From NCBI GenBank assembly GCA_030680805.1, contig JAUXUK010000057.1:1-37045 (forward strand): DNA of 37,045 nucleotides, given 5' to 3'. A model generated the notes under the pieces. That model ran no database searches, was not told the origin of the DNA, and was given only the letters and a program-made list of their open reading frames with translations. Shown here in pieces: positions 8,702-37,045 of this stretch. Made by a program: the position numbers and the translations under genes. Positions within the stretch are counted from its first letter, which is position 1; each line of letters opens with the position of its first letter. Source of the stretch: Sulfuritalea sp. (lineage in GTDB: Bacteria; Pseudomonadota; Gammaproteobacteria; Burkholderiales; Rhodocyclaceae).

Positions 8702-9996
8702 CCCACCATGCGCTGCGGCAGCCAGGTGATGATGGCAGGGAAGGCGTAGAGCAGACCCACCGCCGCCATCATGAGGAAAAATGCCGGCATGGCGGTGCGC
8801 GCGATCCACGGCAGCTGTTTCCCCGTCATGCCCTGGATGACGAACAGGTTGAATCCCACCGGCGGCGTGATCTGCGCCATTTCAACCACCACCACCAGGA
8901 ACACGCCGAACCAGATCAGGTCGATGCCGGCGGCGACGATGGTCGGCTGGATCACGGCGATGGTCAGCACCACCATCGAGATGCCGTCGAGGAAGCAGCC
9001 GAGGATGATGAAAAAAATCATCAGGCCGAAGAGCAGGCCGAATTGGCCGAGGCCGAGACTGGCGATCCATTCCGCGAGGTGGCGCGGCAGGCCCATGTAG
9101 CCCATGGCCAGCGTGAGGAAGGCGCTGCCGGCCAGGATCAGGGCGATCATGCAATACAGGCGGGTGGCGCCGAGCAGGCTGTCGCGGAATGTGTTCCAGC
9201 TCATCGAGCCTTGTGCTGCGGCGAGTACCAAGCTGCCGACCACGCCGAGCGCTGCCGCTTCGGTGGCCGTGGCGACGCCGGCATAGATCGAACCCAGCAC
9301 CAGCGCAATCAGCAATACCACCGGAATCAGGTGGCGCGACGCGTAGAGTTTTTGCGTGAAAGTGGTTTGCTCCGTCGCCGGCGGCACGGCATCCGGGTTG
9401 AGCAGGGCCCAGACCACGATCCAGCCCATGAACAGGGTAGCGAGCAGGATGCCCGGCAGCACCCCGGCGATGAACAGCTTGGCGATCGACACTTCGGCGG
9501 CGACGCCATACACGATCATGATGATCGACGGCGGAATCAGCAGGCCCAGCGTGCCCGCGCCGGCCAGGGTACCGATGGTGATGGCCTCCGGATAGCCGCG
9601 CTTCTTGAGTTCGGGCAGGGTGATCTTGCCGATTGTGGCGCAGGTAGCGGCCGACGATCCCGATACCGCGGCGAAAATGCTGCAGCCGATTACATTCACA
9701 TGCAGCAGCCGTCCTGGCAACTTCTCCAGCCACGGCGCGAGGCCCTTGAACATGTCGGAGGACAGCCGGGTGCGAAACAGGATCTCACCCATCCACAGAA
9801 ACATCGGCAGTGCGGTCAGCGTCCACGACGAGGAGGCGCCCCAGATGGTGACGGCCATCGCATCGCCGGCGGCGCGGGCGGTGAACAATTCCATGCCCAG
9901 CCAGCCGACGCCGAGCAGGGCCAGTCCGATCCAGATGCCGCTGCCGAGCAGGGCGAACAGCGCCAGGATCAGGCCCAGGGTAATCATCAGATCCAT
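8698..9996 (-). CDS. dctM: TRAP transporter large permease (DctM family)
   Basis: This 432-residue, roughly twelve-helix membrane protein is the large subunit of a tripartite ATP-independent periplasmic transporter, a Na+-coupled importer of carboxylates. Segments such as GAGTLGLLIPPSIIMIVYGV, EAAALGVVGSLVLAA and CFLDGISMVVLTI are typical DctM features. It is separated from dctQ by 184 bases filled with hairpins. Its stop overlaps the pxpB start. The substrate may be 5-oxoproline or a related acid, inferred only from the gene coupling. Confidence 0.93.
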   Translation of the reverse strand: MDLMITLGLILALFALLGSGIWIGLALLGVGWLGMELFTARAAGDAMAVTIWGASSSWTLTALPMFLWMGEILFRTRLSSDMFKGLAPWLEKLPGRLLHVNVIGCSIFAAVSGSSAATCATIGKITLPELKKRGYPEAITIGTLAGAGTLGLLIPPSIIMIVYGVAAEVSIAKLFIAGVLPGILLATLFMGWIVVWALLNPDAVPPATEQTTFTQKLYASRHLIPVVLLIALVLGSIYAGVATATEAAALGVVGSLVLAAAQGSMSWNTFRDSLLGATRLYCMIALILAGSAFLTLAMGYMGLPRHLAEWIASLGLGQFGLLFGLMIFFIILGCFLDGISMVVLTIAVIQPTIVAAGIDLIWFGVFLVVVVEMAQITPPVGFNLFVIQGMTGKQLPWIARTAMPAFFLMMAAVGLLYAFPAIITWLPQRMVG

Positions 9997-29621: not shown

Positions 29622-30260
29622 CTATACAACGAGAACGGATGCAGGCGATTCCGTTTCCGTTGGGGTTACGGCAATGGCCGGAAATGCTGAATCAGTCTCA
29701 GCCATACGGGTAGCGTTCTTTCGGGCGGCGATGCTCGCTCGACTGGCCAGACCGCGAAAGCCCCCGGCAATGCGCAAGAGGCGGCGCTTCCATTCATACA
29801 GGCTGCTGGAATAGTTTCCGTCCGGGATCGAACCCGATAACCAAAGGGTGTCGAATTTTCCAACCAGTCCATCAAACTCGCGGATGAGTCCGATGTAGCG
29901 GACTGCGCGAGGAGAGGTGATCCTGGCCTCAAGCTCCTTCGGGTTCGAGTAGGTGACGCCGGCAAACTCGATACCGTTTGCATCGGCCAGCTTTTCAAGT
30001 CGAGTCACCTCGGAACGCATGTCTTCGAACATTTTGTCCAGGCGATCATCAACAATCGTCTCTACCTCGCGCGCCTGCTCGTCAGTGCCAATGACACGCA
30101 ACACGACTGACAAAGAAAAAATTGCATTTGCGCAAAGCTCGAATCCCCGATCAAACACCTGCTGGGCATGAAGAGAATGAAGTCTTACCTTCTGCGTGAA
30201 GTAGGGCCGACTGATGTCGTGTGACGCAGATGGAATGAACGCGGGCGGCCTGGTTGCCAT
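29622..30260 (-). CDS. DUF1845/AcaB-like conjugative-element protein
   Basis: This 212-residue protein resembles the DUF1845 family found in integrative conjugative elements and IncA/C-type plasmids (AcaB-like). Matching features are VRLHSLHAQQVFDRG near residue 25, GIEFAGVTYSNPKELEARI and FDTLWLSGSIPDGNYSS with YEWKRRLLRIAGGFRGL. Some relatives are described as transcriptional regulators, others only as conserved element proteins. AGGAG lies 8 bases before the ATG. It forms a leftward two-gene unit with the helicase, divergent from the rest of the element. Confidence 0.6.
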   Translation of the reverse strand: MATRPPAFIPSASHDISRPYFTQKVRLHSLHAQQVFDRGFELCANAIFSLSVVLRVIGTDEQAREVETIVDDRLDKMFEDMRSEVTRLEKLADANGIEFAGVTYSNPKELEARITSPRAVRYIGLIREFDGLVGKFDTLWLSGSIPDGNYSSSLYEWKRRLLRIAGGFRGLASRASIAARKNATRMAETDSAFPAIAVTPTETESPASVLVV

Positions 30261-30417
30261 CTATGGACTCCTGGTGAGGTAGGTTGATGCTACAAAACCA
30301 GGCTCCAGAATCGAATGCGAAAAGCGCACAAAAGTGCACCGTCTGGCGGTTGCAAATCAGGAATGTCTCAGTGAAAATGGCTCCACATTCGTTGTGCCTA
30401 GCGCCATCGATGAAGCG

Positions 30418-30550
30418 GTAGCTGGCCGCTGGAAACAAACAGCATTTACGTGCCGTTCATGCCAGTGCGTGGCGGTACTCTGTAACCCCTGCGGGATGCC
30501 CATCCCGCAATGGGAGCAGGTGTCTCCAGGATTCTTGACTTGGAGGCATC
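30418..30550 (+). promoter_or_regulatory. leader 1: 26-bp box + nested hairpin + SD hairpin (119-aa gene)
   Basis: The 26-bp box (30418-30443) begins GTAGCTGGCC and ends GAAACAAACAGC. A small hairpin GCCA/TGGC follows. Next is the nested hairpin: outer CCC/GGG around TGCGGGAT-GCCC-ATCCCGCA (30490-30509). Finally TCTCCAG (30523-30529) can pair with TTGGAGG (30540-30546), which includes the Shine-Dalgarno sequence GGAGG four bases before the ATG. The box starts 133 bases before the ATG. Confidence 0.7.
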
Positions 30551-30910
30551 ATGGAAAAAGTTCTTCTGGTTGCATCGCTTATTGGGACAGTCCATCTTTT
30601 CGTGCTTGCTGTTGGCAGGTTCGGACACCTGGCATTTTCACCGCCGGTGGCCACACCTGAACATTGGCCCGGCGCACAAAAGATCCCCGAATGGCACCGA
30701 TCCGCGTCCGCATCCTCGCTTGTCAGTCATGACGATGGCGAAGAGGACTGGTCGAAGTACGACGTACCTGCCTTTATCCGGCGCGGTATTCCGATGCCGA
30801 AGCTGGAAGTCGTGCAACCGAAAAAGCCGACCAAAAGAAAGAAGGCCGTAAAAAAGTCGCAAGTTGTTGCTCCCACCGAAACCGAAGCCCGGTTTGAAGT
30901 GGTGCTCTAA
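30551..30910 (+). CDS. small membrane-anchored protein with FtsZ-C-terminal-peptide-like motif
   Basis: No family is recognised for this 119-residue protein. Residues 3-22 (KVLLVASLIGTVHLFVLAVG) form an N-terminal hydrophobic helix, probably a membrane anchor. A hydrophilic acidic stretch (60-68, DDGEEDW) follows. Residues 70-78, YDVPAFIRR, match the conserved C-terminal peptide of FtsZ (consensus D-I/V-PAF-L/I-R-R/K), which docks to FtsA, ZipA, MinC, ZapD and SlmA. A Lys-rich tail (90-105) comes after it. GGAGG lies four bases before the ATG, inside a hairpin. It opens the rightward gene series. Confidence 0.75.
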   Translation: MEKVLLVASLIGTVHLFVLAVGRFGHLAFSPPVATPEHWPGAQKIPEWHRSASASSLVSHDDGEEDWSKYDVPAFIRRGIPMPKLEVVQPKKPTKRKKAVKKSQVVAPTETEARFEVVL

Positions 30911-30934
30911 CTCGACACTCTGAAGCGATTCAAA

Positions 30935-30998
30935 CCCATGCGGGGATACTTTCCCCGCCTGGGGCTTGGTGTCTCCGCATCTTTTTCAAGGAGACATC
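30935..30998 (+). promoter_or_regulatory. leader 2: nested hairpin + SD hairpin (microprotein 1)
   Basis: Outer CCC (30935-30937) pairs with GGG (30961-30963), and inner GCGGGGA pairs with TCCCCGC (30940-30946 and 30952-30958). GGTGTCTCC (30968-30976) then pairs with GGAGACATC (30990-30998) over 9 bp, with one G-U. This stem contains the Shine-Dalgarno sequence and ends at the base before the ATG. The 26-bp box is absent. Confidence 0.75.
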
Positions 30999-31079
30999 AT
31001 GGAACTCGTTCTAATCGCGTGCTGCATTGGTGGTTTCGTCATCAGTCGTCCGATCATTCGGGCGCTGGGTCTGCGCTAA
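30999..31079 (+). CDS. microprotein 1 (26 aa), paralogue of the next gene
   Basis: MELVLIACCIGGFVISRPII followed by RALGLR is 26 residues long. It has a hydrophobic first half that could insert in the membrane and a basic C-terminal SRPIIRALGLR. AGGAG precedes the ATG by 6 bases, sequestered in a hairpin. It shares 13 of its last 15 residues with the microprotein at 31225. The codon differences in that stretch are mostly synonymous, which argues that the protein is under selection. Function is unknown. Confidence 0.75.
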   Translation: MELVLIACCIGGFVISRPIIRALGLR

Positions 31080-31224
31080 ACCAGCACCAACCTCGCCTGT
31101 GGGAATCCCGCAGGCCTAAAGATTTTCGAAAGAGAGTCCTTAGGCCTGCGGGGTTGTTACGGGCGCGCATCAAGCCTGGCAACTCGTGTGGGGTTCATTC
31201 ATCAACCCGACAAGGAGCCTAGCC
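31080..31224 (+). promoter_or_regulatory. leader 3: mutually exclusive hairpins before microprotein 2
   Basis: GCCTGTGGGA pairs with TCCCGCAGGC (31095-31115). Alternatively CCCGCAGGCCTAA (31107-31119) pairs perfectly over 13 bp with TTAGGCCTGCGGG (31140-31152). The two share 31107-31115 and cannot coexist. In addition AACCTCGC (31089-31096) can pair with GCGGGGTT (31148-31155). GGGTT/AACCC forms a hairpin just before the ribosome site AAGGAG. This switch-like layout differs from the other leaders. Confidence 0.6.
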
Positions 31225-31308
31225 ATGATATTTCTGATACTCGCGATGTGTGCCGTTTCCGGTTTCATCATCAGCCGTCCCATCGTTCGTGCGTTGGGAC
31301 TGCGATGA
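31225..31308 (+). CDS. microprotein 2 (27 aa), paralogue of microprotein 1
   Basis: MIFLILAMCAVSGFIISRPI followed by VRALGLR is 27 residues long. Again it has a hydrophobic half and the conserved GF(I/V)ISRPI(I/V)RALGLR end. AAGGAG lies 9 bases upstream. Tandem duplication with its own leader suggests a dosage or regulatory role. It could be a small membrane partner of element or host proteins, but nothing in the sequence identifies a target. Confidence 0.75.
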   Translation: MIFLILAMCAVSGFIISRPIVRALGLR

Positions 31309-31354
31309 CGACTGGCACCTGTCGTCAAGATGCGTCTCACCCTTTGATCGTCAG

Positions 31355-31391
31355 GCATCACGCAAACCGGATATTCTGGTTTGCGTGATGC
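31355..31391. repeat. perfect 14-bp inverted repeat
   Basis: GCATCACGCAAACC (31355-31368) and GGTTTGCGTGATGC (31378-31391) are perfect inverted copies separated by 9 bases (GGATATTCT). There is no U-tract on either side, so a simple intrinsic terminator is unlikely. It lies in the 335-base gap between microprotein 2 and the nuclease gene, just upstream of the P1-P2 module. It may be a protein-binding site or an RNA processing signal. Confidence 0.7.
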
Positions 31392-31404
31392 GTGATCTAC
31401 CTAT

Positions 31405-31470
31405 CCCGTGCTTTGGTGCGGGCTTTCCAGAGCGCATCGCGCGGTGTGCTGCGATGTGCTGCGGAAAGCC
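31405..31470 (+). ncRNA. P1-P2 tandem hairpin module, copy 1
   Basis: P1 is CCCGTGC-TTTG-GTGCGGG (31405-31422). P2 is GGCTTTCC/GGAAAGCC (31421-31428 and 31463-31470) with an AG/GC internal loop. Its upper stem AGCGCATCGC/GCGATGTGCT closes a 10-base loop. P1 and P2 share two G residues. The same architecture recurs at 34114-34170 with different upper-stem sequence, and the start of a third copy is at 37019. Confidence 0.7.
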
Positions 31471-31509
31471 AGATTGTCGCTTCTGGGTAACCAGGAGCAT
31501 CAAGAGGCG

Positions 31510-31643
31510 GTAGCTGGCCGCTCGAAACAAACAGCCATTAGCGACAGTCAGGCAACTGCCTGTCATTTCCAACCCCGCCAGGGACGCATGTTCCCGGCAG
31601 GGAATGAGTGCCTCCAGCGGGAATCTTGCCTCTGGAGGTAGAA
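31510..31643 (+). promoter_or_regulatory. leader 4: 26-bp box + nested hairpin + SD hairpin (nuclease gene)
   Basis: The box (31510-31535) starts 134 bases before the ATG. A hairpin with GACA/TGTC ends follows at about 31543-31564. The nested hairpin CCC-C-GCC-A-GGGA pairs with TCCC-GGC-A-GGG (31573-31602). CCTCCAG (31611-31617) pairs perfectly with CTGGAGG (31632-31638), which holds the Shine-Dalgarno sequence. Confidence 0.75.
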
Positions 31644-32597
31644 ATGCTTATAGAAACTCAAGTCGGCCTTCTGTCGATGGCGGCCGAGGAGTACCACCGC
31701 AACAAGGACGCTGTTGGGCATTCAAGCCTTGTGCGGATCATGCGGTCCCCGGCGCATTTTCAGGAATACGTCACCCATCCGCCCGAGCCGACCCCGGCAA
31801 TGGCGTTTGGTACGGCCGTTCATTCCGCGGTTCTGGAGCCAGCCGCATTCGCCTCCGATTACGCGGTATTCGACGAGTCGCAACTCGAAGGTTCGTTGCA
31901 GTCGCTCGATGACTACAAGGCGGCGGCTGCGGAACTGGGTATCAAGGTCGGGAAGATGAAGAAGGAAGAGATCAAGGACGCCATCAAGGCTTCCGACGTC
32001 GAGTCCAAATTTGTCTTTCGGGAGGATGCAATTGCCAGGTTGTATAGCGGCAAGGAAATCCTGACACCCACCCTGATGATGGCCATCCGGTCCATTCAGG
32101 CAAGCATCTCTCGTCACACCGGCGCCTCGCGCTTGCTGGCAAACGGGATGGCTGAAATGTCCGGCTTCTGGAGTGATCCGGAGACCGGGCTCGGATGCAA
32201 GTGCCGACCCGACTGGCTTGTCATGGCCGATGAAACCATCACCGGCATCGTGGACGTAAAAACCTGCGCCGATGCTTCGGCAGAGGGATTTGCTCGTTCA
32301 ATCGCCACGCTCGGTTATGACCTGCAGGCGGCATTTTATCAGGATGGCATCAAAGCCATCACGGGAAGAACGCTCCCGTTCTACTTCATCGCGGTCGAAA
32401 AGGATGCTCCGCAAGCGGCAGCGGTCTATCGGGCCAGCGAGGATGTCATCGACGTCGGGCGCGCCAAGTTTCGCGGTGCGCTTCAGCTCCTGCAATGGTG
32501 TCGTGCGAACAACCGCTGGCCGGCGTATCAGCCAAACGGGGAGATCGAAACGATCGAATTGCCTCGCTGGGCGGCGAACTTTGATCTGGAGAGCTGA
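31644..32597 (+). CDS. exonuclease VIII-like PD-(D/E)XK nuclease (RecE/DUF3799 type)
   Basis: This 317-residue protein belongs to the RecE/Cas4/lambda-exo-related PD-(D/E)XK nucleases often annotated as putative exodeoxyribonuclease 8. Motifs: GTAVHSAVLEP (His60), KCRPDWLV (Asp190), GIVDVKTC (Asp204, Lys206) and GYDLQAAFYQDGIK (Tyr225, Gln228). It should resect duplex ends to give 3' single strands for RecT annealing. I chose the ATG at 31644, placed after a GGAGG ribosome site. A leucine-rich frame extension upstream crosses the leader. The next gene begins one base after its stop. Confidence 0.88.
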   Translation: MLIETQVGLLSMAAEEYHRNKDAVGHSSLVRIMRSPAHFQEYVTHPPEPTPAMAFGTAVHSAVLEPAAFASDYAVFDESQLEGSLQSLDDYKAAAAELGIKVGKMKKEEIKDAIKASDVESKFVFREDAIARLYSGKEILTPTLMMAIRSIQASISRHTGASRLLANGMAEMSGFWSDPETGLGCKCRPDWLVMADETITGIVDVKTCADASAEGFARSIATLGYDLQAAFYQDGIKAITGRTLPFYFIAVEKDAPQAAAVYRASEDVIDVGRAKFRGALQLLQWCRANNRWPAYQPNGEIETIELPRWAANFDLES

Positions 32598-32598
32598 A

Positions 32599-32847
32599 GT
32601 GCCGAGCAATCCAATCGAGAAGGTCGCACCCTATCTCAACGAGGTCGGGGATCCGATTCTGTCGATCGCTGCCCGAGTGGAAGCAAAGGTGGATGCCCTC
32701 AAACAGGCGGAAGCCGAAGTGGTCCGTTGCAGGCGCGCGCTCAGGGAAAGTCGTCGATTGCTCCTTGCCTGCGTCAAGCATAGCTATGTGGATTCGGAAA
32801 TTGAAACAGCAGATGCGATGTGCAACCGACAGAAGTACCGTCCTTAG
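32599..32847 (+). CDS. 82-aa predicted coiled-coil protein between nuclease and RecT
   Basis: This protein of 82 residues starts at GTG 32599, one base after the nuclease stop. No family is recognised. Residues about 22-55 are rich in Ala, Glu, Lys and Arg with heptad-like spacing (ARVEAKVDALKQAEAEVV), suggesting a coiled coil. The rest contains CVKHSYVDSEIETADAMC. The tight spacing suggests co-translation with the nuclease, so it may be an accessory subunit. A longer frame upstream lies over the nuclease gene and is not supported. Confidence 0.6.
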   Translation: MPSNPIEKVAPYLNEVGDPILSIAARVEAKVDALKQAEAEVVRCRRALRESRRLLLACVKHSYVDSEIETADAMCNRQKYRP

Positions 32848-32862
32848 GCTATGCAAGTCCTC

Positions 32863-32979
32863 TCACCGAGGAATAGTCTGAAACGGTGAAGCAGCAGCAG
32901 TAATCAACCCGGCGGGAATGCCATGTTCCCGCAAGGGGCGTGGTGTGACCGCCTTTTCTATTTATTGGAGGTCAATACC
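32863..32979 (+). promoter_or_regulatory. leader 5: nested hairpin upstream of recT
   Basis: TCACCG/CGGTGA (32863-32868 and 32884-32889) forms a first hairpin. Then outer CCC (32908-32910) pairs with GGG (32935-32937), and inner GCGGGAA pairs perfectly with TTCCCGC (32912-32918 and 32926-32932). Next comes GGGGCGTGGTGTGACCG, shared almost exactly with leader 7. GGTGTGACC can pair with GGTCAATACC just before the ATG (one bulge), covering part of the Shine-Dalgarno region GGAGGTC. Confidence 0.68.
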
Positions 32980-34107
32980 ATGTCACTGCAAGCCTTGAAA
33001 AACATCAATCGCAACACGCCCACCGATGCCGAGCAACCGAAAGGTTTCCCGGCCATGCTGGAGCAGTTCAAGGGTGAAATTGCCCGTGCCCTGCCAAAGC
33101 ACATCAATCCGGACCGCATGGCGCGCATTGCACTTACTGCATTCCGAATGACACCCAAGCTTGGAGAGTGTGATCCCCGCAGCGTATTCGCCGCGGTTAT
33201 CCAGTCTTCGCAGATGGGGCTGGAAGTCGGTCTCATGGGGGAAGCGCATCTGGTGCCGTTTGGCAACCAGTGCCAGCTGATCCCTGGCTACACGGGCCTG
33301 ATGAAGCTCGCTCGACAGTCCGGGCTGGTTCAGGACATCTATGCCCACGAAGTCAGGGTGAATGACAATTTCACCCTCAAGCTGGGCATGGAGCGTAGTC
33401 TCGATCACGAGCCATTGACGACGCTGGGCGGCTTTCCTGCCGCCGACGACGAGCGTGGCGAGGTCGCCGGTTTCTATTCCGTCGCGGTGTTCAAGGATGG
33501 AAGTCGGACGTTCGTGGCGATGGGGCGCAAGGAGGTTGAGAAGATTCGCGATAACTCGCGGGGCTATCAGTCTGCCAAGCGATACAAGAAGGAATCCGTA
33601 TGGGATTCCGACTTTACGGCCATGGGTCTGAAGACAGCGATTCGTCGCTTGTGCAAATTCCTGCCCAAATCACCCGAGCTGGCCTCGGCACTCGCCCTGG
33701 ACGCAGCTGCGGAGCAGGGCAAGGCGCAAAACCTGAATTTGACCGATGTGATCGAGGGCAACTACGCACCGATCATTGACGACGAGACAGGCGAGATCGC
33801 AGACGCCAAGCCGGTGACAAGCCGCGATGCCAGGCAATCCAGGCCGGGTGGCGATCCGGTTGGAGTGGCTGATGCAACTGGAAAGAAGGTGAAAGTGGAT
33901 GGTGTGTCTGCCATCGCTACCGACGCCTCCGACCCGGAACCCAGTGCCAGGTTGAAAGCGATCTACGAACAGATGGCCAAGGCAACAAGCACGGAAGTGC
34001 TGGACGAGATTTATGTCCGCGCCGAAGGTGATCTGGATGGAGCCGAACTGGAGGCCTTGATGCGGGAATACCGCACATGCAAGGCAGCCATCGGCCGACT
34101 GATCTAA
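32980..34107 (+). CDS. recT: RecT-family single-strand annealing protein
   Basis: RecT promotes annealing of complementary single strands and works with a RecE-type nuclease. The core (about residues 20-250) shows RMARIALTAFRMTPKLGECD, SVFAAVIQSSQMGLEVGLMG, AHLVPFGNQCQLIPGYTGLM and FKDGSRTFVAMGRKEVEKI, the RecT signature regions. The protein is 375 residues, about 100 longer than E. coli Rac RecT. The extra C-terminal part is acidic and may contact SSB or other partners. The ATG at 32980 follows GGAGG. A P1-P2 hairpin module starts 6 bases after the stop. Confidence 0.93.
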   Translation: MSLQALKNINRNTPTDAEQPKGFPAMLEQFKGEIARALPKHINPDRMARIALTAFRMTPKLGECDPRSVFAAVIQSSQMGLEVGLMGEAHLVPFGNQCQLIPGYTGLMKLARQSGLVQDIYAHEVRVNDNFTLKLGMERSLDHEPLTTLGGFPAADDERGEVAGFYSVAVFKDGSRTFVAMGRKEVEKIRDNSRGYQSAKRYKKESVWDSDFTAMGLKTAIRRLCKFLPKSPELASALALDAAAEQGKAQNLNLTDVIEGNYAPIIDDETGEIADAKPVTSRDARQSRPGGDPVGVADATGKKVKVDGVSAIATDASDPEPSARLKAIYEQMAKATSTEVLDEIYVRAEGDLDGAELEALMREYRTCKAAIGRLI

Positions 34108-34113
34108 ACCCCT

Positions 34114-34170
34114 CCCCGTGCTTCGGCATGGGGCTTTCCAGAGCATGGAGCGGTCCGTGCTGCGGAAAGC
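34114..34170 (+). ncRNA. P1-P2 tandem hairpin module, copy 2
   Basis: P1 is CCCCGTGC-TTCG-GCATGGGG (34114-34133), with a stable UUCG tetraloop. P2 is GCTTTCC/GGAAAGC (34133-34139 and 34164-34170) with the same AG/GC internal loop as copy 1. The upper stem AGCATGGA/TCCGTGCT closes on GCGG. The lower stem and internal loop are identical to copy 1, while the upper stem differs in sequence but still pairs. It starts 6 bases after the recT stop. Confidence 0.75.
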
Positions 34171-34216
34171 GAATTATCCAGAATTGTTCCCCTGGCTATA
34201 CCAACGGGACATGAAG

Positions 34217-34347
34217 GTAGCTGGCCTTCTGAAACAAACAGCATCTGGCTGCAATCGGGAAACCGGTTGCCATTAAAACCCCGCCGTGGGGCGCAAGCTC
34301 CCGGCAGGGAACGAGCGCCTCCGGCGGTTTTTCGTCTGGAGGTTGCA
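34217..34347 (+). promoter_or_regulatory. leader 6: 26-bp box + GNRA hairpin + nested hairpin + SD hairpin
   Basis: The box (34217-34242) starts 131 bases before the ATG. The hairpin GCAATCGG-GAAA-CCGGTTGC (about 34251-34270) has a GNRA tetraloop. The nested hairpin has outer CCC/GGG (34279-34281 and 34307-34309), GCC/GGC and GGGG/CTCC. CCTCCGG (34318-34324) pairs with CTGGAGG (34336-34342) over 7 bp with one G-U, hiding the Shine-Dalgarno sequence. Confidence 0.75.
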
Positions 34348-35004
34348 ATGGACGTTGTAATCAATCACGAGCAGGAGTTGTTCGTTGTTTCCGCTGGCAA
34401 GGGGTATTCAACCCTGGGCTTCGAGCATGTCTTCAAGCAATTGAAGCAACTCGTGGCCCGGCTGAATCTCTCGATCCAGATTCGCGAGGATGAGAAGGGA
34501 ACCATCGGTCAGTACGCCGATTTTCAGCGCGCCATCAACGAGGCTGCCAAGGCAAATCTCAAGGAGACCTGGTTCAATCTCGACACTCCTGTCAAGGTTC
34601 GCCGAATCCTGGAGCAGTACCGCAAGAGCGGCAAGGCGATTCGCATCTTCTACGGAGATGTGGAGAGGGGCGAAGACTGGCTGGAAGAAAACGACGTGGT
34701 GGGGAAAATCGGCCGCTCGTCGGGCACTTTCAAGATACCCATTCTTCTTCAAAACGGCGAGGCATGGGGTGTCAGCATTCTCGATCACGCTATCGTCAGG
34801 CTGATGGATGTGGCAGATCGGAAGGTTCTCTGGGAGCACCCGAAATATCAGGCGCCTCAGTTGCAGATTATCGCGAAGCGCGTTGGCGAAGACCCATATT
34901 CGGTGTTTGTCGACGGCGGTCCTCACGCAAGCTTCAGAACTTTGGCGAAGGCAGCCCAGTGGGTGGCGTTCATGGCCGGTGAGTGCATGGAAGCGCCGCA
35001 GTAG
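34348..35004 (+). CDS. 218-aa element protein of unknown function
   Basis: I do not recognise a family. The 218-residue soluble protein has no signal peptide or membrane segment. Notable parts are [60 protein letters not shown] and [14 protein letters not shown]. The C-terminal half is rich in beta-type residues and contains [20 protein letters not shown]. It sits between recT and ssb behind a full class A leader, so it is probably part of the recombination/replication module. The ATG at 34348 follows GGAGG at 5-base spacing. Confidence 0.8.
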
Positions 35005-35021
35005 TCCAGTATTTCAACCAA

Positions 35022-35090
35022 CCCGGCGGGATCGTCATGCTCCCGTCAGGGGCATGGTGTGACCGTCCTTTTCATCACAAGGAGTTCATC
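35022..35090 (+). promoter_or_regulatory. leader 7: nested hairpin upstream of ssb
   Basis: Outer CCC (35022-35024) pairs with GGG (35049-35051). Inner GCGGGA pairs with TCCCGT (35026-35031 and 35041-35046). Relative to leader 5 one C becomes T opposite G, which keeps the pair. The following GGGGCATGGTGTGACCG matches leader 5 at 16 of 17 positions. TCCTT (35066-35070) pairs with AAGGA (35079-35083), the ribosome site. Confidence 0.7.
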
Positions 35091-35501
35091 ATGCTTAACA
35101 AGGTTCAATTGATCGGTTTTCTGGGGGCTGACCCCGAGCTTCGACGCAGCAATGATAGCGATGCCATTGCGCGCGCAAATATCGCCACCAGCGAAAGCTG
35201 GAAGAAGGATGGCGAGAAGCACGAAAAAACGGAATGGCACCGTGTCGTGTTCTTCGGAAAACTCGCCGAGATTGTGGGCGAGTATCTGAAGAAAGGTTCG
35301 CTGGTGTATGTCGAGGGCCGTCTCCAGACCCGTTCATGGGACAAGGATGGCGAGACGCGCTACACCACCGAAACCGTCGCCGAGAGCATGAAGATGCTCC
35401 CCAGCGGCAGTGGCAAGGCCAGGGAAGGGACTGACGCGTCCAGATCGGCGCCGAAAGGAAACTCCAAGGCGGCACAACCATTCGATGACGGGCCATTCTG
35501 A
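35091..35501 (+). CDS. ssb: single-stranded DNA-binding protein
   Basis: This 136-residue SSB has an OB fold at 1-105 ([58 protein letters not shown]), a short Gly/Ser-rich linker and an acidic tail ending DDGPF. The usual tail is DDIPF, so the tip Ile is replaced by Gly while the terminal Pro-Phe used for partner binding is kept. The host has its own SSB elsewhere; element SSBs are common next to recT. The ATG follows AAGGAG. Confidence 0.95.
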
Positions 35502-35545
35502 TGGCTTCGCGCTCAGGCACTGTTTTTAGCGCCTGACATTACCAA

Positions 35546-35679
35546 CCCCACCGGGGAGTTACCCCGGGCGGGGTGCCTCTATGCCGGTGGGTAATTCACC
35601 GGCCCGCGACGGGGCCTTCCCAAGTGCCTCGCGCGGGCATTTCGGCAGGCCCCGTCCGGGGCTACTCATGGAGGCAATC
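35546..35679 (+). promoter_or_regulatory. leader 8: nested hairpin and multibranch SD-sequestering structure (primase)
   Basis: Outer CCCC/GGGG (35546-35549 and 35570-35573) encloses CCGGGG/CCCCGG. Then TGCCTCTATG (35574-35583) pairs over 10 bp with CATGGAGGCA (35667-35676), which holds the Shine-Dalgarno sequence. Inside that stem are GCCGGTG/CACCGGC (35583-35603) and the perfect 10-bp GACGGGGCCT/AGGCCCCGTC (35608-35617 and 35647-35656). The ribosome site is thus at the base of a multibranch fold. Confidence 0.7.
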
Positions 35680-36756
35680 ATGGAAGCAAAGGAAGTCAAG
35701 GCTGCTGCACATGGCCGCTGGGGAGGGATTCTCTCGGCCCTTGCGCCACAGCTTCAACCTGCACTTGATCGAGTCGGCCATCACGTTTCCTGCCCGGTGC
35801 ACGGCGGCAAGGACGGATACCGTGTGTTCAATGACGTGGATGATTCGGGAGGCGGCGTCTGCAATACCTGTGGCGTCCATCCCGATGGATTTGCCACGCT
35901 GATGTGGGCGTCCGGCATGGATTTCAAGGAAGCACTGAAGTCCGTAGCCGAGTACCTGCGTGTCGGCATCATCGCCAGACCGTTTGGCGGGAGAACCATT
36001 TCTCGCCAGACCAGCAAGGGCGACGATGACGAAAAGTCTCGCCAGGCGCTTAACCGGGTCTGGAACGAATCGATCGCCCTCTCTCATCCCGATGCTGAAC
36101 CGGCCAGGTTGTATCTGGCCCGAAGAGGCATCTCGATCCGACAACCGGAAACACTCCGTCTCCACCCATCGCTCGCGTATTTCGAGGACAGAAAGGAGAT
36201 CGGCACGTTTCCGGCGATGCTGGCCATGGTGCAGGGTCACGGCGGCAATGCCATCACCATTCATCGTACCTACCTGACGGCGGACGGCTACAAGGCCCCC
36301 GTCGAGTCTCCCAGGAAGCTGATGCGGTATCCCAGTCAGCGGAAGCTGGCGGGCGGAGTAATCCGACTGGTGGAGGCGGGCGCCGTGCTGGCAGTGGCAG
36401 AAGGTCTGGAGACGGCTCTCGCGGTCATGGAAGGGACGAAGATGCCGGTCTGGTGCGCGGTCAATGCGTATCTGCTGGAGCACTTTTACCCGCCACCCGG
36501 CGTGAGTCAAATCCTGGTCTTCGCCGACAAGGATCGGCCCTCGGCGCAACATCCACGGGGGCATGGTCAGGAATCAGCCAGACGGCTGGTCCAAAGGCTC
36601 TGGGAGCGGGGTATCAAGGCCAGTGCCATTGTCCCTGCGGGCGAGATTCCTGCAGGTCAGAGGTCACTGGACTGGCTCGATATCCTCAATCGCGATGGCA
36701 AGGCAGGCTTTCCTTCCTTGCAATCCGTTGAGCATGCCATGCGTCGCGTCGCGTGA
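35680..36756 (+). CDS. DNA primase with zinc finger and Toprim domain
   Basis: This 358-residue protein has an N-terminal zinc-binding site CPVH...CNTC (Cys38, His41, Cys61, Cys64), a middle helical region and a C-terminal Toprim domain with AVAEGLETALAVME (Glu241) and VFADKDRP (Asp283, Asp285). It resembles the primase part of phage P4 alpha-type and plasmid/element primases but lacks a helicase domain. It likely primes element replication. The ATG at 35680 follows GGAGG by 5 bases; an in-frame open stretch back to 35581 lies over the leader. An upstream ATG at 35668 lies over the ribosome site. Confidence 0.88.
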   Translation: MEAKEVKAAAHGRWGGILSALAPQLQPALDRVGHHVSCPVHGGKDGYRVFNDVDDSGGGVCNTCGVHPDGFATLMWASGMDFKEALKSVAEYLRVGIIARPFGGRTISRQTSKGDDDEKSRQALNRVWNESIALSHPDAEPARLYLARRGISIRQPETLRLHPSLAYFEDRKEIGTFPAMLAMVQGHGGNAITIHRTYLTADGYKAPVESPRKLMRYPSQRKLAGGVIRLVEAGAVLAVAEGLETALAVMEGTKMPVWCAVNAYLLEHFYPPPGVSQILVFADKDRPSAQHPRGHGQESARRLVQRLWERGIKASAIVPAGEIPAGQRSLDWLDILNRDGKAGFPSLQSVEHAMRRVA

Positions 36757-36769
36757 AGGAGGTGGCGCC

Positions 36770-36862
36770 ATGGACAGGAATGTTGACGTCAGCCTGGTTG
36801 ATATTGAAACCCTGCCCGGACGCATCGGGTCGGAGATCCCTCGTAACAGGAGGGCATCATGA
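36770..36862 (+). CDS. 30-aa small ORF after the primase
   Basis: A 30-codon frame begins with ATG 36770 and a strong ribosome site AAGGAGGT at spacing 5-6. It reads MDRNVDVSLVDIETLPGRIG and ends RNRRAS. Its stop overlaps the next start as ATGA, so translation coupling is likely. No family is recognised. The ribosome site and overlap are the evidence for a real small gene; it could also be a translational relay only. Confidence 0.5.
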   Translation: MDRNVDVSLVDIETLPGRIGSEIPRNRRAS

Positions 36863-37011
36863 AATATCAGTACCTGGGACCACAAACCGTCGCGGAACTC
36901 GCGGACGGGAAACGGGTGCTTCTTTTCAAAGGATCGGTGCTCCTGGTCCAGATACTCAGCGCACAACTCAAGGCGCTCGTGGAGAAGGGGCTTCTGAAGG
37001 AAATCGCATGA
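36859..37011 (+). CDS. 50-aa small ORF coupled to the preceding one
   Basis: A 50-residue frame starts at ATG 36859 (ATGA overlap), preceded by AGGAGG. It contains VAELADGKRVLLFKGSVLLV and a charged amphipathic end (SAQLKALVEKGLLKEIA). No family is recognised. The sequence looks like a small soluble protein, and a P1-P2 module begins 7 bases after its stop. Confidence 0.6.
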   Translation: MKYQYLGPQTVAELADGKRVLLFKGSVLLVQILSAQLKALVEKGLLKEIA

Positions 37012-37018
37012 AACCAGG

Positions 37019-37045
37019 GCCCGCCGAAAGGCGGGCTTTCCAGAG
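37019..37045 (+). ncRNA. P1-P2 tandem hairpin module, copy 3 (cut by window edge)
   Basis: P1 is GCCCGCC-GAAA-GGCGGGC (37019-37036) with a GNRA tetraloop. It is followed by GCTTTCCAGAG, identical to the 5' part of P2 in the other two copies. The rest lies beyond the window. As at recT, it starts a few bases after a stop codon. Confidence 0.65.

Follow-up and report, generated by a model that had tools for sequence, protein, structure and literature searches.

Leaders in front of the genes of a conjugative element

The stretch examined here, hereafter the window, is the whole 37,045-base contig JAUXUK010000057.1 of a Sulfuritalea sp. assembly (GCA_030680805.1, 3.14 Mb, 107 contigs), and its last 7–9 kb appear to belong to a conjugative element. 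The genes are arranged there in the series AcaB-like regulator, UvrD helicase, 119-amino-acid (aa) gene, two microproteins (26 and 27 aa), DUF3799 nuclease, RecT, 218-aa gene, single-strand binding protein (SSB) and Toprim primase. Seven of them, that is, the 119-aa gene, microprotein 1, the nuclease gene, recT, the 218-aa gene, ssb and the primase gene, are each preceded by a leader which reads as CCC, a GC hairpin and GGG. We put at roughly 0.7 the probability that these leaders act in cis, each as a bistable switch of translation; computation shows the covariation of the helices, the exclusion of one fold by the other and the predicted order of folding.

An earlier note on this DNA, made from the letters alone, had pointed out the arrangement of CCC, bulge, GC stem and GGG before the seven genes, and reading of the sequence bears it out. 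The inner stem is TGCGGGAT/ATCCCGCA in the leader of the 119-aa gene, GCGGGGA/TCCCCGC in that of microprotein 1, GCGGGAA/TTCCCGC in that of recT and GCGGGA/TCCCGT in that of ssb, and the nuclease and 218-aa leaders have the identical layout with different inner stems. The element is larger than the note described, which had neither the second hairpin on the Shine-Dalgarno sequence nor the competing helix presented below. In six leaders the Shine-Dalgarno sequence and the start codon find a pairing partner in the stretch that follows GGG (in the microprotein 1 leader, GTGTCTCC with GGAGACATC-ATG), and in the primase leader, by eye, this pairing spans a longer distance, with about 80 nucleotides (nt) of additional hairpins ahead of the start codon. 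In the leaders of homologous genes in relatives, the plan is kept and the letters are changed.

The covariance model R1 recovers six of the seven window leaders with 35.5–68.6 bits (E < 1e-6), scores which are partly so by construction because the six sequences belong to the training alignment A1; the primase leader is a divergent variant, matched at 35544–35583 with only 16 bits (E = 0.03). That the matches exceed chance is seen in the own genome of 3.14 Mb, where R1 at E ≤ 0.1 gives six matches, all within 30484–35093 of this contig. By reading, microprotein 2 (31225), a small open reading frame (ORF) near 32599 and two short ORFs behind the primase gene (36770 and 36859) are without a switch.

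Three covarying helices and two exclusive folds

For the analysis, the inner 5′ strand together with the loop is called S1, the inner 3′ strand S3, the 20 nt after GGG S2, and the part from the Shine-Dalgarno sequence to the start codon R. From the window (7) and its relatives (189), 196 leaders were extracted, of which 164 could be parsed and 134 had room for S2, and 53 non-redundant ones (alignment-score identity below 0.75) entered a swap test, in which the duplex energies of own segments are compared with those of segments swapped among leaders. Three helices proved far stronger than swapping allows, namely S1:S3 (z −12.0), S1:S2 (z −13.8) and S2:R (z −10.0), and the controls S1:R, S3:S2 and S3:R gave −0.6, +1.4 and −0.6, respectively. 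By gene class, S1:S2 reached −6.3 in recT, −6.3 in primase, −4.1 in ssb and −2.4 in the 119-aa class (n = 5).

Moreover, the same helices appear in A1, a MAFFT alignment made without structure from 40 of the 47 non-redundant non-primase leaders; the primase class was excluded deliberately, and seven oddly parsed leaders were left aside (g119_L023, g218_L003, g218_L023, nuc_L004, ssb_L015, ssb_L033 and ssb_L035). The structure built of S1:S3 and S2:R has 75.5% of its cells paired in A1 against 37.8–54.2% in slid versions, and S1:S2 has 78.4% against 44.7–55.3%, with a covariation score of 0.352 against at most 0.223. R1 gave 425 matches at E ≤ 1 on 52 relative loci, and the best 150 of these form the set A2. 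An outside set of 16 leaders, each sharing less than 0.75 identity with A1, with all earlier leaders and with all A2 matches, repeated the result (S1:S3 −5.4, S1:S2 −6.6, S2:R −5.5; controls S1:R −1.8, S3:S2 0.2, S3:R −1.4); it was used in place of a wider set of 23, in which L074 shares 0.98 identity with a training row and six further leaders resemble earlier ones. The earlier note had held that the idea of an RNA-level element whose pairing-preserving stems precede many genes of a single mobile element would fall if homologous elements showed no covariation; covariation was found, the outside set included. In all three helices A-C mismatches are depleted relative to shuffles more than G-U pairs, which modestly fits a sense RNA.

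The competing helix S1:S2 came to light because an automatic parse without base constraints kept choosing S1:S2 or a loop helix over the nested hairpin. In the microprotein 1 leader it consists of 10 contiguous pairs, GCGGGGATAC/GTGTCTCCGC. A pseudoknot of loop and S2 as the sole additional pairing was set aside, since the stem part of S1 covaries with S2 as well as the loop part does. A mini-ORF ATG-GTG-TGA within S2, seen by eye in some leaders, was dropped as not general.

Since S1 is shared by S3 and S2, and S2 by S1 and R, there are two mutually exclusive states: the closed state X, with S1:S3 inside the CCC:GGG clamp and S2:R, and the open state Y, with S1:S2 and R free. By computation, therefore, the leaders have the two exclusive structures, one occluding the ribosome binding site, that are expected of a translational riboswitch. 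Folds were predicted for the nascent RNA, ending after S2, and for the full RNA with the start codon included. Among the 53 leaders, Y was predicted for 43 when nascent and X for 37 when full; among 126 distinct leaders from the 150 best matches, nascent Y was found in 112, full X in 113 and the passage from Y to X in 100; and in the outside set the figures were 14/16 and 16/16. The six R1-matched window leaders are all Y when nascent and X when full, and the closed state takes over 2–12 nt ahead of the end of the start codon. When S2 was swapped among leaders, nascent Y fell to 57–63 of 126.

In the 8 nt after S2 there is a strong preference for T (on average 5.0 of the 8, with A at 0.6), at least five T being present in 77 of the 126 leaders. 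The U-tract is absent from the window's 119-aa and nuclease leaders and, by eye, from several of the radC-linked leaders described below.

Related elements, the upstream box and radC RNA

The same kind of leader recurs on related elements of other proteobacteria. A RecT search of genome contigs led to 48 loci, mostly betaproteobacterial judging from their titles, and on the 52 relative loci the 300 best of the 425 R1 matches (E ≤ 0.0011) all lie on the plus strand, which is that of recT; a second count of switch matches gave 111 of 112 on the gene strand. The 150 best matches precede ORFs of 19 clusters, among them RecT (38 loci), the 25–27-aa microprotein (22), SSB (21), nuclease (15), the 119-aa type (12), ArdC-like (9), RadC (3) and others, where the names ArdC-like and RadC were taken from the relatives' annotation. 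The median length of these ORFs is 212 codons, compared with 41 behind random ATGs, ATG being part of the model so that 147 of the 150 matches end in it. In addition, R1 found matches in 31 of 300 genomes of the order (E ≤ 1e-4) and in 8 of 274 genomes of the class (E ≤ 1e-5, at least two matches each), the own genome included in both; three whole plasmids carry 14, 13 and 9 matches, on a single strand within each plasmid, and one complete chromosome carries 9, all inside 12.4 kb.

In three window leaders a 35-nt element, here called the box, stands upstream of the switch and consists of a stem, the loop TAGCTGG, an A-rich tail and CAGC. Boxes selected by loop and tail only, in the window and its relatives, lie 110 times on the gene strand and once on the opposite strand, and at least four contiguous Watson-Crick pairs flank the loop in 109 of the 110. 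The arms occur in 25 distinct pairs, of which 24 are paired, whereas swapped arms pair in 13.8%. The alignment A4 was built from 55 of the 89 distinct boxes, boxes that carry a hairpin within the tail being among the excluded; here, 97.8% of the stem cells are paired and both-side changes occur at all five pairs; because A4 was chosen for at least four paired bases, the evidence for the stem rests on the set selected by loop and tail. The second helix, GCTG/CAGC, is paired in 55 of 55 boxes but invariant, and loop and CAGC were both search criteria; the box is regarded as a candidate H-type pseudoknot. In some boxes the hairpin inserted in the tail gives the layout of radC's own 3′ pseudoknot.

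The box and the switch are distributed differently. Of 62 boxes in 13 sources, 42 are followed by a switch at 7–68 nt, mostly 31–45 nt, and 20 are not, and 42 of 111 switches have a box within 150 nt; the distance from the previous open frame of at least 50 codons has a median of 23 nt for switches without a box against 83.5 nt for those with one. We infer from these positions that boxes head transcription units and that switches precede single genes. The earlier note had assigned one hairpin leader to each transcription unit; most genes instead have one each (microprotein 1, recT and ssb all do), and the RNA that seems to stand once per transcription unit is the box, a different element. A search for the box (E ≤ 1e-4) in the 300 genomes of the order was positive in 8, the own genome included.

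Some further observations touch the box. In locus L004 a leader with TTGACA, 16 nt and TAGAAT stands upstream of a box (9740–9830), which suggests transcription of the box. Further hairpins precede boxes 2 and 3 (31418–31470 and 34106–34164), namely a GC hairpin ending in GGGCTTTCC.., followed by GGCTTTCC..GGAAAGCC and CTTCTGG-GTAA-CCAGGAG, which by eye seem compensatorily varied in relatives; the contig end (37014–37045) is a copy of the GC hairpin.

radC RNA is listed in a table of Weinberg 2010 as a likely cis-regulatory RNA. The Rfam model (RF01754) has no match in the window at its gathering threshold (40 bits), nor at E ≤ 5 over 30200–37045; a search of the own genome with stricter filters (E ≤ 0.001) gave none either, and the 149-nt RNA is likewise unmatched in six relative loci scanned. 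In a search of 150 genomes, five were above the cut-off, with 24 radC RNAs in 3–10 copies per genome, and for 20 of the 24 an R1 match of the same orientation either lies immediately behind the RNA or overlaps its 3′ end (first batch 10/10, E 7e-8 to 0.087; remainder 10/14, E 1e-8 to 0.08; 17 of the 20 at E < 0.01, with E values that come from small searches). By eye, a comparable pairing, such as CAAGGGAC/GTCCCTTG, is visible in the four others (L091, L093, L094 and L097). When the 24 radC RNAs were parsed independently, 17 had a start codon 50–135 nt behind them; 14 of these 17 parse as a switch, all 14 being X when full and 12 being Y when nascent. As a control, 236 sites with Shine-Dalgarno sequence and start codon were taken from the same loci, including a small number of true leaders; 40 of them parsed, 14 with full X and 9 with both. 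Since an R1 match stands at the end of 20 of the 24 radC RNAs, the Rfam model of radC probably lacks its expression platform.

The comparison with radC and STAXI that the earlier note had recommended is thus answered in two parts: the switch stands directly behind true radC RNAs elsewhere, and the window has no match to either Rfam family at gathering or, over 30200–37045, at E ≤ 5. Judged by eye, the 3′ part of radC forms a compensating pseudoknot in the order A, B in the loop, A′, hairpin, B′, resembling the window's box; also by eye, its outer stem is compensated (GTTCGC/GCGAAC, GCTCGC/GCGAGC, GTCCGC/GCGGAC) and the radC counterpart of GCTG/CAGC varies on both sides. The genomes above the radC cut-off and the genomes holding the box have none in common.

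Within or next to the leader regions of relatives there are tRNA genes (L004 10123–10194, L015 3642–3714, L045 4795–4881 and L077 402–473), and HEARO RNAs lie inside two element loci (L015 15213–15451 and L077 2127–2363).

Interpretation and surrounding genes

The proposed mechanism follows the order of the RNA, which is CCC, S1, S3, GGG, S2, often a U-rich linker, and then the Shine-Dalgarno sequence with the start codon. In the closed state, S2 would pair with R and hide the ribosome binding site; in the open state, S1, which resembles a ribosome binding site, would capture S2 in one long hairpin and leave R free. During transcription the nested hairpin could form first, Y would be favoured once S2 is out, and X only once R is out, so that the decision would fall on the stretch from S2 to R. 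Whatever keeps S1:S3 together over this stretch would close the gene; otherwise the gene would be open while the RNA is young. We infer that in cells it is translation that the switch controls, closing to repress it and opening to permit it. The best candidate for a sensor would be the upstream candidate pseudoknot (here, at some switches) or radC RNA (on other elements).

Several results weigh against this reading. In the nuclease class (n = 6) S1:S2 is no better than swapped (z −0.5), S2:R is not clearly above swapping in ssb (n = 10, z −1.5) and weak in primase (−2.0), the control S3:R reached −2.4 once the primase leaders were removed, and two controls stood at −2.3 in the wider set of 23 with its copy of a training leader. 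As for folding, 16 of the 53 leaders remain Y in the full fold, 10 of them primase leaders; the window's 218-aa leader reverts to Y with further downstream sequence; and 45–50% of the S2-swapped leaders still fold Y, because all leaders resemble one another. A sigma-70 scan of 30200–37045 found no promoter (0, against 2.4 in shuffles). The Y-to-X barriers estimated crudely with findpath are large (median 13.5 kcal/mol), and a purely kinetic closing could therefore be slower than mRNA decay; given such barriers, the choice between states may be made once. The findpath barriers from P1 to Y had implausible values and were not used.

Because the U-tract after S2 leaves room for pausing or termination, antitermination is a serious rival, though we consider it unlikely. 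The leaders would then be transcription attenuators, with the Y hairpin and U-tract as an intrinsic terminator, and the box would recruit an antiterminating activity in the manner of nut/put, the genes being reached by modified polymerase alone. The preference for T after S2 speaks for this, and so does the fact that U-runs of at least four are commoner in switches without a box (44/69) than with one (17/42; Fisher p 0.02). However, some leaders have no U-tract, whereas a pairing that covers the Shine-Dalgarno sequence and start codon is general; a terminator scan of the window barely exceeds its shuffles (10 against 6.1, standard deviation 2.8); and ribosomal protein S1 can likewise make use of U-rich sites.

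Less probable still is that these are plain ribosome-binding-site hairpins without switching, whose function would lie in the closed state, with the complementarity of S1 and S2 arising as a by-product because S1 and the Shine-Dalgarno sequence are alike rich in G. X is indeed the predicted final state in most of the 126 leaders, and the nuclease class has no S1:S2 excess. Yet the S1:S2 covariation is as strong as that of the hairpins themselves and extends past GGAG/CTCC, and the controls S1:R and S3:S2 are near zero in the 53-leader test, although S1:R is at −1.8 in the outside set.

A role of the motif at the DNA level, whether folded as single-stranded DNA (ssDNA) during conjugation or serving as operator for a shared regulator, is very improbable, for although ssb, recT, nuclease, ArdC-like and RadC genes stand behind switches and STAXI is discussed as ssDNA in Weinberg 2010, the register to the Shine-Dalgarno sequence and ATG is fixed with both included in the pairing, the listed matches are nearly all on the gene strand, the arms change by compensation instead of keeping their sequence, and A-C mismatches are, modestly, further below shuffle than G-U pairs. 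The shared trans-acting regulator that the earlier note had proposed is not supported as worded, the evidence being neither for nor against it.

Among the closest known systems, translational riboswitches with a sequestor and an anti-sequestor likewise have exclusive helices, one covering the ribosome binding site; unlike them, the window-type switch stands alone before internal genes, in up to 14 copies per plasmid. As for a conserved aptamer domain, the box with its invariant loop and tail and its covarying stem is a candidate, though it accompanies only 42 of 111 switches. radC RNA, like the window leaders (six matches and one variant), is a multi-copy cis-regulatory leader of element genes, but its Rfam model does not describe the switch. 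The topology of the box, a short stem with a loop able to pair with an A-rich tail, is presumably like that of the preQ1-I riboswitch, from which it differs in its invariant loop (YAGCTGG) and tail, and it has no Rfam match. In Weinberg 2010, STAXI is described as pseudoknots near ssb, integrase and antirestriction genes; its pseudoknot comes in two or three tandem copies, whereas the window box is single and ahead of a start-codon switch, and the listed boxes stand far apart (no separate search for tandem copies was made). STAXI (RF01728) has no Rfam match at gathering in the window or the relative sources scanned. The tisB standby site with its pseudoknot and the metastable toxin mRNAs combine a closed ribosome binding site with upstream structure and folds relevant during transcription; these are single toxin genes, and here one leader is common to many genes of one element.

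At gathering, Rfam 15 matched neither switch nor box in the sources scanned, so that two RNA motifs unmatched there are described here. Nothing on switch or box leaders was found among the top open-licence literature matches, and an earlier notice in Weinberg 2017 or in the additional files of Weinberg 2010 is possible; the terms "radC RNA" and "radC motif" were not found in the open-licence literature searched, where RF01754 does occur.

More tentatively, an RNA regulon may be imagined, in which an upstream 35-nt pseudoknot or, on other elements, a radC RNA would sense a ligand, polymerase or ribosome and set a string of switches. Genes for recombination, ssDNA binding and antirestriction would then be co-expressed only in a phase such as entry into a new host. 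If this doubtful extension were true, radC RNA, on record since 2010 with no known role, would share its expression platform with other sensors that could take its place. With the switch, in any case, an RNA whose role has long been unknown gets a candidate expression platform and mechanism, and the findings suggest that proteobacterial conjugative elements and plasmids control whole gene sets at the RNA level, in addition to transcriptional regulators. The switch is open to simple reporter tests, and the search for its signal becomes a defined biochemical question.

Table 1. Positions of leaders, boxes and genes in the window (SD, Shine-Dalgarno sequence).
Feature	Position	Strand	Evidence or remarks
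Switch leader of 119-aa gene (CCC, S1, S3, GGG, S2, SD, ATG)	30484..30553	+	R1 43 bits; nascent/full folds
Switch leader of microprotein 1	30933..31001	+	R1 66 bits
Switch leader of DUF3799 nuclease gene	31571..31646	+	R1 35.5 bits
Switch leader of recT	32905..32982	+	R1 65.1 bits; folds
Parts of recT leader	CCC 32908-32910, S1 32911-32925, S3 32926-32932, GGGG 32935-32938, S2 32939-32953, U-tract 32954-32957, SD to ATG 32967-32982	+	
Switch leader of 218-aa gene	34277..34350	+	R1 48.9 bits
Switch leader of ssb	35019..35093	+	R1 68.6 bits
Divergent longer primase leader	35544..35682	+	Nested hairpin 35546-35573; TGCCTCTATG (35574-35583) pairs with CATGGAGGCA (35667-35676), about 80 nt of hairpins between; pairing by eye
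Box 1 (AAGCGG-TAGCTGG-CCGCT..AAACAAA-CAGC)	30413..30447	+	Box model R2 52.3 bits (in R2 training set); stem covariation, strand bias
Box 2, upstream of nuclease gene	31505..31539	+	R2 48.3 bits
Box 3, upstream of 218-aa gene	34212..34246	+	R2 53.9 bits; stem GAAGG/CCTTC, compensatory to boxes 1 and 2
Possible divergent box before recT (CCTC/GAGG stem; CACCG with CGGTG)	32859..32889	+	By eye only; no R2 match
AcaB-like regulator	29622-30260		Divergent from leader genes; 19.5 bits, E 0.0009, under Pfam cut-off
119-aa gene	30551..30910	+	No Pfam match
Microprotein 1, 26 aa (MELVLIACCIGGFVISRPIIRALGLR)	30999..31079	+	Sequence reading
Microprotein 2, 27 aa	31225-31308		Sequence reading
PD-(D/E)XK nuclease, DUF3799	31644..32597	+	PF12684, 4.5e-41
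RecT recombinase	32980..34107	+	PF03837, 1.8e-39
218-aa gene	34348..35004	+	No Pfam match
Single-strand binding protein (ssb)	35091..35501	+	PF00436, 1.8e-34
Toprim/zinc-ribbon primase	35680..36756	+	PF13362, PF08273

The surrounding genes are listed in Table 1, and a comparable gene order is found on plasmid pSTJ2 of Sulfuricystis multivorans and also on Simplicispira and Delftia plasmids. The 218-aa protein has no relatives in a search of viral contigs and two matches in a search of 274 genomes of the class, the own genome being one of them. By reading, microproteins 1 and 2 are a related tandem pair whose C-terminal ends read SRPI[IV]RALGLR, and relatives of 25–27 aa sit behind a switch in 22 of the 52 loci searched. 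Among the relatives, the annotation has an AcaB-family gene for L004 and L005 and an FlhC-family gene for L005 and L006.

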